From contig JADLHF010000196.1 in NCBI GenBank assembly GCA_020848935.1, positions 1-32,355 of the forward strand: 32,355 nucleotides of DNA. Reading direction: 5' to 3'. Below are positions 3,717-31,157 of the stretch, piece after piece. A program made the position numbers and the translations under genes. The notes below the pieces were generated by a model. The model was not told where the DNA came from and did not search any database. It was given only the letters and a program-made list of their open reading frames with translations. The first letter of the stretch is position 1, and each line of letters opens with the position of its first letter. Origin of the DNA: Acetobacteraceae bacterium (GTDB lineage Bacteria > Pseudomonadota > Alphaproteobacteria > Acetobacterales > Acetobacteraceae).

Positions 3717-3828
3717 GTTCTTTTTTGTAAAAAAGAACCAAAAAACTTTTATCCACTTGAGAGTGCGATCGTGGGTTGCGGCGAAAATGGATGAAGTCTT
3801 TTTGCTTCTTTTTCTTCAGAAAAAGAAG
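3717..3828 (+). repeat. Double-hairpin intergenic element, copy 1 (livF-livH gap)
   Basis: Hairpin A (3717-3738) has arms GTTCTTTTTT and AAAAAAGAAC around a GT loop. Hairpin B (3805-3828) has arms CTTCTTTTTC and GAAAAAGAAG around TTCA. The 66-nt spacer begins CAAAAAACTTTTATCCA and ends TGGATGAAGTCTTTTTG, which are largely complementary, giving a third central stem. GGAAGG-type and CCTTCC-type sequences flank the element. It lies between two genes expected to be in one operon. Confidence 0.9.
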
Positions 3829-3866
3829 ACTCCTTCCTTTCTTTTGAACCCTCTGGGAGCGCATTG

Positions 3867-4739
3867 ATGGAAGGCCTCCTGCACCAGGTCATCTCGGGCA
3901 TCGCAACGGGCAGCATCTATGCCTCGATCTCGCTGGCGTTGGTGATGATCTTCCTGGCCACCCACCAGATCAACTTCGCCCAGGGCGAGATGGCGATGTT
4001 CTCCACCTATATCGCGCTGACGCTGATCCAGGCCGGGGTGCCGTACTGGGGGGCGTTCGTGCTGACCCTGGCGCTGTCGTTCATTGCCGGCATGGTGATG
4101 CAGCGCACGGTGCTGGAACCGCTGGCGCGCGCGCCGGTGCTGGCCTCCGTGGGCGCGTTCCTGGGTTTGCTGTTGATCTTCAACAATATCGCCGGCTGGC
4201 TGTTCACCTATTCCCTGCAACCGTTCCCGTCCCCGTTCGGCGAGGGCAAGCCGATCCTGGGCGGCATGCTGTCGCGCCATGAGGTGGGCTCGATCGGGGT
4301 GACCCTGCTGGTGCTGGTGGTGGTATGGGCGTTCTTCCGGTTCACCAAGCTGGGCCTGGCGCTGCGCGGCGCCGCATACAATCCGGAATCGAGCCGGCTG
4401 GTGGGCATTCCGGTGGCGCGCATGCTGTCGCTGGGGTGGGGCCTGGCCGCGGCAATCGGGGCGATCGCCGGCATGATGGTGGCGCCGATCGTGTTCCTGG
4501 ACCCCAACATGATGGGCGGCGTGCTGCTGTATGCCTTTGCCGGCGCGCTGCTGGGCGGCATCACCAGCCCGCTGGGTGCCGTGGTCGGCGGCGTGCTGAT
4601 GGGGGTGATCGAGAATCTTGCCGGCGCCTATGTGGTGGGCACCGAGCTGAAGCTGACCACGGCGCTGGTGATCATCGTGCTGGTGCTGGTAATCAAACCG
4701 ACGGGCCTGTTCGGCAAGGCCCTGGCGAGCCGGGTGTAG
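3867..4739 (+). CDS. livH: Branched-chain amino acid type ABC transporter permease, LivH-like
   Basis: A 290-residue inner-membrane permease. It opens with the LivH-typical HQVISGIATGSIYASISLALVMI, written here as overlapping short motifs (QVISGIATGSIYA; SLALVMI), followed by THQINFAQGEMAMFSTYIAL. About eight hydrophobic segments follow, with the conserved cytoplasmic loop GLALRGAAYNPESSRLVGI and a GGITSPLGAVVGG stretch. The ATG at 3867 is preferred over an in-frame TTG at 3864 because GGGAG at 3855-3859 sits 7 nt before it. It ends 4 nt before livM, so the two permease genes are coupled. It forms the LivHM membrane channel. Confidence 0.9.
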   Translation: MEGLLHQVISGIATGSIYASISLALVMIFLATHQINFAQGEMAMFSTYIALTLIQAGVPYWGAFVLTLALSFIAGMVMQRTVLEPLARAPVLASVGAFLGLLLIFNNIAGWLFTYSLQPFPSPFGEGKPILGGMLSRHEVGSIGVTLLVLVVVWAFFRFTKLGLALRGAAYNPESSRLVGIPVARMLSLGWGLAAAIGAIAGMMVAPIVFLDPNMMGGVLLYAFAGALLGGITSPLGAVVGGVLMGVIENLAGAYVVGTELKLTTALVIIVLVLVIKPTGLFGKALASRV

Positions 4740-4743
4740 TGCG

Positions 4744-29800: not shown

Positions 29801-31052
29801 CGAGCGCGCCATGGCGATCGAGCGCTTCGAGATCGAGCGGCTGGCCAAGGACCGCGACGACGAGAAGGCGATCCAGGAGCGTTCGTTCCTGAACCGGCTG
29901 CGCGAGAAGCTGCTGGGCGGCAAGGCATCCGGCGGGTTCAAGGGCATCAAGGCCGGCACCGTGCTGACCGAGGAGGTGCTGGCCGAGCACGTGCGCGGCA
30001 CCTGGCGCCATATCGGCGTGCAGGATGACGGCGTGATGGCCGAGATCGAGATCCTCAAGCGCGAGTACGATGCCGCCGTGGCCCGCCTGCAGGCGCGCTT
30101 CGACAGCAAGGTGGAGAAGCTGCAGCGCGGCGACGAGCTGCCGCCCGGCGTGATGAAGATGGTCAAGGTGTTCGTGGCGGTGAAGCGCAAGCTGCAGCCG
30201 GGCGACAAGATGGCCGGCCGGCACGGCAACAAGGGCGTATGCTCGCGCGTGATGCCGGTGGAGGACATGCCGTTCCTGGAGGACGGCACCTCGGTGGATA
30301 TCGTGCTGAACCCGCTGGGCGTGCCCAGCCGCATGAACGTGGGCCAGATCCTGGAGACGCATCTGGGCTGGGCCTGTGCCACGCTGGGCAAGCAGGTGGG
30401 CGAGCTGGTGGAGGAATACCGCCGCACCGGGCACGCCCGCGACGCGCTGCTGGCGCGGTTGAAGGACATCTACGGCGACAAGGTCTATGCCGAGCAGATC
30501 GCCGCGATGTCCGACGCGCAGCTGATGGAGCTGTCCGACAACCTGAAGAAGGGCATCCCGATCTCCACCCCGGTGTTCGACGGGGCCAATCCGGCCGATA
30601 TCGAGGCCATGCTGGCCAAGGCCGGGCTGGATTCGTCCGGCCAGGTGGTCCTGACCGACGGGCGTACCGGCGAGCCGTTCGAGCGCAAGGTGACGGTGGG
30701 CATCATCTACATGCTCAAGCTGCATCACCTGGTGGACGACAAGATCCACGCCCGCTCGATCGGCCCGTACTCGCTGGTGACCCAGCAGCCGCTGGGCGGC
30801 AAGGCGCAGTTCGGCGGCCAGCGCTTCGGCGAGATGGAGGTCTGGGCGCTGGAGGCGTATGGCGCCGCCTACACGCTGCAGGAGATGCTGACGGTGAAGT
30901 CCGACGACGTGTCGGGCCGCACCAAGGTCTATGAGGCGATCGTGCGCGAGCAGGACACGTTCGAGGCGGGCATTCCCGAGAGCTTCAACGTGCTGGTCAA
31001 GGAGCTGAAGTCGCTTGGGCTGAACGTGGACCTGGATATGAATCCGACCTGA
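26880..31052 (+). CDS. rpoB: DNA-directed RNA polymerase subunit beta
   Basis: A 1390-residue beta subunit, a normal length for alphaproteobacteria. It begins with [21 protein letters not shown]. The rifampicin-binding cluster is intact near residues 538-570 ([19 protein letters not shown], then [14 protein letters not shown]), with wild-type residues at the main resistance positions as far as I can read. [41 protein letters not shown] and the C-terminal [21 protein letters not shown] are all present. ATG 26880. Hairpin A of a repeat element begins 9 nt after the stop, and rpoC starts 157 nt after the stop. Confidence 0.99.
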
Positions 31053-31061
31053 AGGAAGAAT

Positions 31062-31157
31062 GTTCTTTTTTGAAAAAAAGAACCAAAAAACCTTCACTCG
31101 TTTGCCGGACGCGAATGACTGAAAGTCTTTTTGTTTCCTTTTCTTCAGAATAGGAAG
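31062..31157 (+). repeat. Double-hairpin intergenic element, copy 7 (rpoB-rpoC gap)
   Basis: Hairpin A at 31062-31083 matches the consensus. Hairpin B (31134-31157) has diverged to TTTCCTTTTC / GAATAGGAAG, in which one T-A pair has become C-G through changes on both arms, with one mismatch and one wobble. The short 50-nt spacer folds almost completely: TTCACTCGTTTGC pairs with GCGAATGACTGAA through wobbles around a CGGAC loop. It is the most informative copy for structure. Confidence 0.9.

Follow-up and report, generated by a model that had tools for sequence, protein, structure and literature searches.

Why does a single stretch of Acetobacteraceae DNA (contig JADLHF010000196.1, all 32,355 nucleotides (nt) of which are called the window here) carry the same double-hairpin sequence between its genes again and again, and what could such copies do there? 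The original prediction, made from the letters of the window, had described six full copies and one partial copy of a structured intergenic repeat that might have spread as a non-autonomous element. We re-read the sequence and found the six full copies where they had been placed and with the parts ascribed to them, while the partial copy near 20981 proved to be a decayed one (Table 1). Our analysis describes the copies as ~125-nt inverted repeats at gene ends that appear to be mobile, and we lean, with little more than even confidence, towards the reading that they terminate transcription leakily in both directions or serve as a module at mRNA 3' ends.

The element is a single non-coding inverted repeat. 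Read with A first it consists of an outer purine tract (AAGGAAGGAT in the consensus), hairpin A (GTTCTTTTTTGAAAAAAAGAAC), an A-rich strand, a variable stem-loop, a T-rich strand, hairpin B and an outer pyrimidine tract (consensus CCTTCCTT). The earlier description of its extent held for the inner parts, but with the two outer tracts the boundary lies ~10 nt further out on each side. The spacer is flanked by CAAAAAACTTT on the A side and by AAAGT[C/T]TTTTTG on the B side. Because these strands are complementary save for one bulged base, and because the spacer often prolongs their stem, hairpins A and B, previously described as distinct sequences with a variable spacer between them, belong to one inverted repeat. 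In a structure-fitted alignment of 148 matches, drawn from this genome, its congeners and further genera (two of the rows are reverse-strand readings of elements also present forward), the hairpins and flanking strands were 98.7-99.5% paired and almost invariant, and the innermost pair of hairpin B was changed on both sides in 12 sequences. For the outer tracts 75.5% of the cells were paired and 7 of 7 pairs had changed on both sides; since a k-mer test showed no excess for an element's own tracts over those of other elements, we rejected a covarying helix and treat these tracts as composition only. The predicted RNA fold is a double-stranded rod of ~40 bp. Its core of A-tract, stem and T-tract can be read on both strands and has the layout of a bidirectional intrinsic terminator, with the T-rich strand that comes after the stem (TCTTTTTGCTTCTTTTTC) broken up by C and G. 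For this reason the statement that the copies do not fit a standard intrinsic terminator was only partly right: the three parts are present both ways, although many stems are weak in this genome. In Roseomonas and Pseudoroseomonas the central stem is strong and GC-rich.

Three further features of the hairpins and centres were recorded. Both loops hold a TGA when read inward from either side (TTTTTTGA in A, TTCTGA in the complement of B, GTGAAC as a variant); it was seen in most copies, for example at 7150-7153 and 7244-7248 of the window, and a gene entering the element can therefore meet a stop there. At one orthologous site we observed copies with B-type hairpins at both ends or with mixed A/B loops (GTTCAC; L211 6004-6178, L221 2958-3152, L212 3522-3676), so that the asymmetry of A and B is inessential. 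Another dispersed sequence (GTCATCCTGAGCGAAGCGAAGGACC and its complement) occurs in or beside the centre of some elements (L019 1377-1540, L027 from 1501, L221 7409-7632), a placement that looks like one repeat nested inside another.

Hairpin A with its A-tract was found at 316 exact sites in the 4.6-Mb genome (G000; 301 contigs, 95% complete) and a control pattern at none, which means that the repeat is not a product of chance. We built a covariance model from the six full window copies plus 19 others of the genome, 25 in all; the window copies score 98-139 bits and match by construction. When the best 150 of 1310 first-look candidates were scored, the search gave at least 150 matches in the genome. 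A sample of 395 kb, composed of the window and 20 stretches picked as rich in hits, contained 63 exact sites, and 73 elements in it scored 65 bits or more, matches below this score being dropped from the analysis of positions and those below 75 bits from the comparison of arm and centre identity. Extrapolation (316 x 73/63) gives a genome total of ~370 elements. The proposed density of about one copy per 5 kb is correct for the window, but genome-wide it is about one per 12 kb. By pattern, 112 of 137 arms were in inverted pairs, and half-decayed and solo arms occur as well.

The repeat was also observed well beyond this genome, as a structured intergenic family in other genera. A 19-base half-site with at most one mismatch matched in 79 of 299 genomes of the family and in 33 of 102 genera (controls 0), with counts that vary widely within genera, for example from 0 to 155 in genus g82. 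Element-rich and element-free species stand side by side in this genus and, as further examples, in g17, g19, g100 and g120. Five of the 385 genomes in a class-level scan belong to the family, and among the other 380 there were six with a single one-mismatch match each, which we take as background. A scan of named genomes with a 24-mer of hairpin B gave at least 80 loci. Carriers among the matches listed were Gluconacetobacter, Asaia, Neokomagataea, Roseomonas, Pseudoroseomonas, Rhodovarius and Rhodovastum, together with bins labelled Acetobacteraceae, Rhodospirillales, Alphaproteobacteria or Proteobacteria; the cultivated strain Gluconacetobacter liquefaciens DSM 5603 is one of the carriers, and judging from the named matches, the repeat appears essentially confined to Acetobacteraceae.

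Next, we analyzed where the 73 elements lie relative to genes, using our own gene caller trained on the same 395 kb. We observed 28 elements between convergent genes, 26 codirectional with A first, 15 codirectional with B first, one divergent and two at the end of a stretch; the single remaining element lay inside a called gene. A stop codon was found within 20 nt for 75% of them, compared to 14.5% under a null of uniform insertion into element-free intergenic DNA. Distances were taken to hairpin A or B, and the outer tract thus usually begins within a few bases of the stop. Divergent spacers make up 27% of the element-free intergenic DNA, yet they house only 1 of 70 elements. The named genomes, whose loci were obtained via an exact match to hairpin B, gave a similar picture: both neighbours were called for 70 of 75 elements, 83% were at most 20 nt from a stop codon and none of the 70 was divergent. 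An annotated plasmid of Pseudoroseomonas cervicalis agrees: two convergent coding sequences flank the match, their stops 9 and 3 nt away from it. A tRNA-Thr gene faces the element at L073 16403-16671, with ~55 nt between its 3' end and the element; the other two of the three tRNA genes in the sample have no element within 700 nt.

Taken together, the A-tract, stem and T-tract in both directions, the position at gene ends and the preference for convergent genes suggest bidirectional intrinsic termination, and it is from anatomy and position that we infer terminator activity. A simple scan for canonical terminators, which found them at 0 of 97 gene ends beside an element and at 10 of 96 without one, also counts in favour, although the comparison is weakened by the masking of element bases, which leaves less sequence to search. 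Each copy, in whichever direction it is transcribed, would be a leaky intrinsic terminator or mRNA 3'-end module: the central stem would form, RNA polymerase would stall once it reaches the T-rich strand, and the end of the RNA would be defined or protected by the two hairpins or by the rod as a whole. Between convergent genes one copy could serve both transcripts and would be kept; inside operons, where readthrough must be possible, copies would come and go. Spread would be by transposition or recombination of some kind, with the conserved arms recognised or used in the process.

The arms differ strongly from the centre in their conservation. Among 64 elements of this genome the two arms were 94 and 96% identical and the centres 56% (shuffled 45%), and in 13 orthologous pairs the values were 82-100% for arms and 47-96% for centres. 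In other genera, where loci were fetched by hairpin B alone, the commonest A arm does not differ from that of this genome, and 24 of 66 agree letter for letter over the excised stretch. If dead copies were simply decaying, the arms would not be spared; we therefore consider either that function preserves them or that recombination rewrites them. The centres of other genera have a different sequence and fold better than shuffled ones (66 loops, mononucleotide shuffles), with a mean z of -5.5 in Roseomonas/Pseudoroseomonas (n=8), -5.1 in Asaia bins (n=11), -5.5 in Rhodovastum bins (n=3), -3.8 in other bins (n=37), -2.7 in Gluconacetobacter (n=5) and -2.0 in Rhodovarius (n=2); 88 centres of this genus gave a mean z of -2.5. 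In 49 of 58 loops from other genera the own halves folded better than swapped halves (p 9e-8). This comparison took the place of an ungapped pairing test with a mixed outcome (in other genera the best offset was -1, with 0.472 against 0.356, an offset that showed no excess here).

We then compared nine genomes of the genus, whose aligned stretches are 76.9-94.8% identical pairwise. At 21 shared gene junctions (slots) with an element in at least one genome we counted 43 filled and 44 empty genome-junctions, some of the filled ones resting on low-scoring matches. In slots 1 and 10-13 the junction measures -4 to 12 nt in several relatives and 137-272 nt with the element in one or two species; at slots 10 and 13, a longer spacer that lacks the element was seen in each of two further relatives. 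At the junction orthologous to the first window copy G005 has 12 nt and no element, the L1/L10 site is filled in G003 and empty in G001, G002, G004, G005 and G008, and the rpoB/rpoC site is filled in G003 and G006 and empty in G001, G002, G004, G005 and G008. Orientation varies too: the element of slot 10 runs A-first in this genome and B-first in G008, and slot 4, the eutC site, has it B-first in two species and A-first in three and is unfilled in G003. When one filled genome per slot was omitted, and low-scoring slots 3, 16, 17 and 19 and divergent-type slots 8 and 18 were excluded, the other genomes were filled in 13 of 15 cases at convergent and in 6 of 41 at codirectional junctions (p 1e-6); G002 and G005 count as filled in slot 14, where each has two low-scoring halves, and excluding them gives 11 of 13. 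We read this as probable frequent gain with retention between convergent genes, loss being possible at some sites. From this genome comparison the element appears to be mobile, and the filled and empty sites agree with the non-autonomous behaviour that had been proposed.

The spread of particular centres is consistent with recent lineage-specific copying. A motif of one centre lineage (CATTGGAGTGTGG, at most one mismatch) occurs 31 times here (once for the reversed-pattern control) against 0, 1 or 2 times in seven congeners. In G005, 13 matches carry one other variant of it. Nine of these stand at contig starts, the same 13-mer being found at base 19-54 of C8, C16, C29, C48, C57, C58, C63, C69 and C72, as if a repeat left unassembled ended there. 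Compared to a master centre sequence written by eye, 22 of 59 centres of this genome clearly match in the orientation of the arms and none in reverse; because of this, arms and centre seem to be copied together, and flipping of the loop by recombination between arms was left unsupported. Three wide-spaced arm pairs were read by eye; what they enclose is either a small gene whose function is not known (G002, G005) or a gene of ordinary appearance, and they showed no obvious transposase, no whole-genome search for full-length relatives being part of this reading. In L213 2640-3500 (G005) and L234 4100-4890 (G002) two half-elements surround a small gene of ~180-190 codons, at a junction that carries one normal element in this genome. 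A REP (repetitive extragenic palindrome)-associated tyrosine transposase (RAYT), suggested earlier as the partner, did not turn up: the domain Y1_Tnp was not detected in G000 (95% complete) or in the element-rich G002, G003, G004 and G008, and it is present in 36 of 299 genomes of the family.

The element is also present in phage contigs. Exact arm scans of predicted viral contigs gave 2 and 33 stretches, and all five contigs checked by PHROG matches (L255, L260, L269, L276, L284) contain phage structural genes. On tailed-phage contigs the element lies within late operons: between terminase and portal in L255 and L260, between phrog_13532 and the tail-sheath gene in L260 and, with a small gene intervening, in L276, and behind the tail-sheath gene in L284. 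Of the phage elements with both neighbours called, 35 of 37 are codirectional and 57% lie at most 10 nt from a stop. A microvirus record has an exact A arm behind a GC-rich hairpin on the coding strand, with a T-run ~10 nt past the stem; this stretch is not clearly more stable than shuffled sequence (z -1.8, 10 of 200 shuffles as stable).

Such copies in phage late operons and tight host operons, the patchy occurrence even within a genus (g82), the recent lineage-specific copies and the half-decayed and solo arms would all be expected of a purely selfish repeat resembling REPs or miniature inverted-repeat transposable elements (MITEs), which inserts widely, is purged by selection from everywhere but just behind stops and has a fold that serves nothing but its own mobility. 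We nevertheless consider this explanation unlikely, since the arms stay 94-96% identical while the centres drift to 56%, unlike the simple decay of dead copies, since convergent sites are retained across species (13 of 15) and the fold of the centre is maintained in other genera, and since neither a transposase nor a target duplication was found. Less likely still, and in our view improbable, is that the element stabilises mRNA 3' ends or forms an RNase III or RNase E processing site that tunes operon expression with little termination. The long double-stranded rod, the location just behind stop codons and the copies within host and phage operons would fit such a role, as would the reported change of mRNA decay by ERIC (enterobacterial repetitive intergenic consensus) copies via an RNase E site, as mentioned in PMC2229807 and PMC10969869; however, the equal use of both orientations and the strong convergent preference fit two-way termination at least as well, and no strand-specific stability was observed. 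That biased DNA uptake or recombination maintains the sequence, with co-option at gene ends as in Neisseria and Haemophilus, is very improbable, for although one conserved sequence, with its complement, is kept across genera in hundreds of gene-end hairpins, a parallel set out in the relevant part of PMC1852404, the arms are ~30 nt long and mostly in inverted pairs, and only one of 73 elements lies inside a called gene.

Several observations weigh against the favoured reading, that of mobile gene-end repeats acting as a leaky two-way terminator or 3'-end module. The copies between rpoB and rpoC, in the ABC-transporter operon and in phage late operons (terminase/portal) sit badly with strong termination, so that termination would have to be incomplete, or the main effect would be on mRNA processing or stability. 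The fold energy does not depend on the transcribed strand, and strand-specific RNA selection was therefore rejected. Orientation is not significantly biased among codirectional copies (26:15, 18:21 and 19:16), and an element behind rnpB was found in 0 of 9 genomes with the arm patterns; the 5S gene, sought as a further terminator test, was located in one of nine. Many centres of this genome fold weakly, the mean z over 84 loops of the genus being -0.8 once the conserved ends are removed, and the advantage of own over swapped halves is weaker in congeners (20 of 29, p 0.06) and in this genome (40 of 62, p 0.03). Insertions are not clean, 72 flank pairs showed no excess of the direct repeats that a target-site duplication would leave, and no partner protein was found. 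Finally, the sample for gene positions was picked for hit-rich contigs and relies on our own gene calls.

Tentatively, and with less confidence than in the favoured reading itself, one may go further and regard the element as a self-spreading terminator that homes to gene 3' ends in either orientation and supplies termination to host and phage genes, so that many gene ends of a bacterial family would be under concerted evolution, with invariant arms recognised by a family-specific factor and a fast-changing self-complementary core. Should this hold, a single shared mobile module would shape many gene ends of these bacteria and of some of their phages, and mobile DNA would be tied directly to the termination of transcription; the element would also supply ready-made two-way terminators for acetic acid bacteria and give a clear case in which to test whether a repeat that spreads turns into a signal of its host.

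The copies of the window differ in their surroundings and folds. Neighbours are codirectional for three of the six full copies (3717, 25219, 31062), two of these in likely operons. In the RNA folds predicted for the A-first strand, the copies at 7129, 18657, 25207 and 31050 form one long rod (z -3.9 to -4.7), the copy at 3705 a cloverleaf (z -3.0), and the copy at 9190 folds poorly (z -1.3). The TGA stop codon of an EutC-like gene (18774-19547, minus strand) sits inside hairpin A of the copy at 18657. Apart from the element, the window contains two arrays of imperfect 15-nt tandem repeats, at 16776-16910 and 17192-17336.

Table 1. Copies of the element in the window and parts of the representative copy
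Feature	Position	Strand	Remarks
Full element, A first	3705..3841	+	ABC-transporter ATPase gene 2923-3690 before, permease gene 3867-4739 after
Full element, A first, representative copy	7129..7270	+	Flanked by convergent genes ending at 7057 and 7341
Left purine tract of representative copy	7132..7140	+	Sequence read and consensus
Hairpin A GTTCTTTTTTGAAAAAAAGAAC of representative copy	7141..7162	+	
A-rich strand CAAAAAACTT of representative copy	7163..7172	+	
Variable centre of representative copy, partly self-complementary	7173..7223	+	
T-rich strand AAGCCTTTTTG of representative copy, complement of A-rich strand	7224..7234	+	
Hairpin B of representative copy	7235..7258	+	
Right pyrimidine tract of representative copy	7259..7267	+	
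Full but degenerate element, reversed (A first on minus)	9190..9325	-	Behind gene 9357-10223 (-)
Full element, reversed, convergent neighbours	18657..18797	-	Covariance model and gene calls
Decayed copy, one A arm and remnants, in divergent spacer	20903..21014	-	34 bits
Full element, A first	25207..25346	+	Flanked by L1 gene (24520-25209) and L10 gene (25685-26203)
Full element, A first	31050..31169	+	Flanked by rpoB (26880-31052) and rpoC (from 31210)

For better evaluation we compared the element with known systems. No Rfam family matched the window at its gathering score, and around the copy at 7141 a search at E up to 1 gave sub-threshold AT-rich matches only, the best with 26 bits against a cut-off of 48; we found no description of this repeat in the open-licence papers searched. 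As neither a target duplication nor a RAYT was found, we file the element, by comparison with the published descriptions, apart from REP, ERIC and the known MITE families. The enterobacterial ERIC/IRU and YPAL/RU-2 are described in PMC2229807 as transcribed palindromic intergenic mobile repeats of 127 and 168 bp, with hundreds of copies in some genomes, and ERIC at 3' ends is noted there to affect mRNA decay. Our element resembles them in being a palindromic, intergenic, apparently mobile repeat in hundreds of copies, but it lies immediately behind stop codons and has a hypervariable centre, and TA ends or a TA target duplication of the ERIC type were not found in the flank consensus and the direct-repeat test; the sequence relation was checked through Rfam only. 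With the REP, BIME and REPIN sequences and their RAYT, as PMC3733652 presents them, it shares the high copy number of extragenic palindromes, the facing pairs and the location at gene ends, whereas it is longer and the Y1 transposase was not detected in this genome; a GTAG/CGTC tag was evident neither in the consensus of the arms nor in the outer tracts, though no test was aimed at it. Paired DNA uptake sequences of Neisseria and Pasteurellaceae, according to the relevant part of PMC1852404 about 9-11 nt long and very abundant, likewise make terminator-like hairpins at gene ends from a repeated sequence and its complement, but here the arms are ~30 nt and mostly paired. SPRITE of Streptococcus pneumoniae, named in PMC10969869 as resembling rho-independent terminators, is by its description another mobile-type repeat that looks like a terminator. 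The bidirectional intrinsic terminators treated by TransTermHP, as far as PMC1852404 sets them out, have the same stem with adenines on one side and thymines on the other, lie at the 3' ends of genes and serve convergent genes; in contrast to them, our element has invariant ~30-nt arms that form hairpins of their own, hundreds of near-identical copies, an AT-rich outer structure and apparent mobility, and its termination is predicted from layout. It shares with MITEs the short length, the non-coding sequence, the inverted-repeat ends, the many copies and the occurrence of filled and empty sites. On the evidence of its sequence, the element has the layout of a bidirectional terminator and the behaviour of a MITE.

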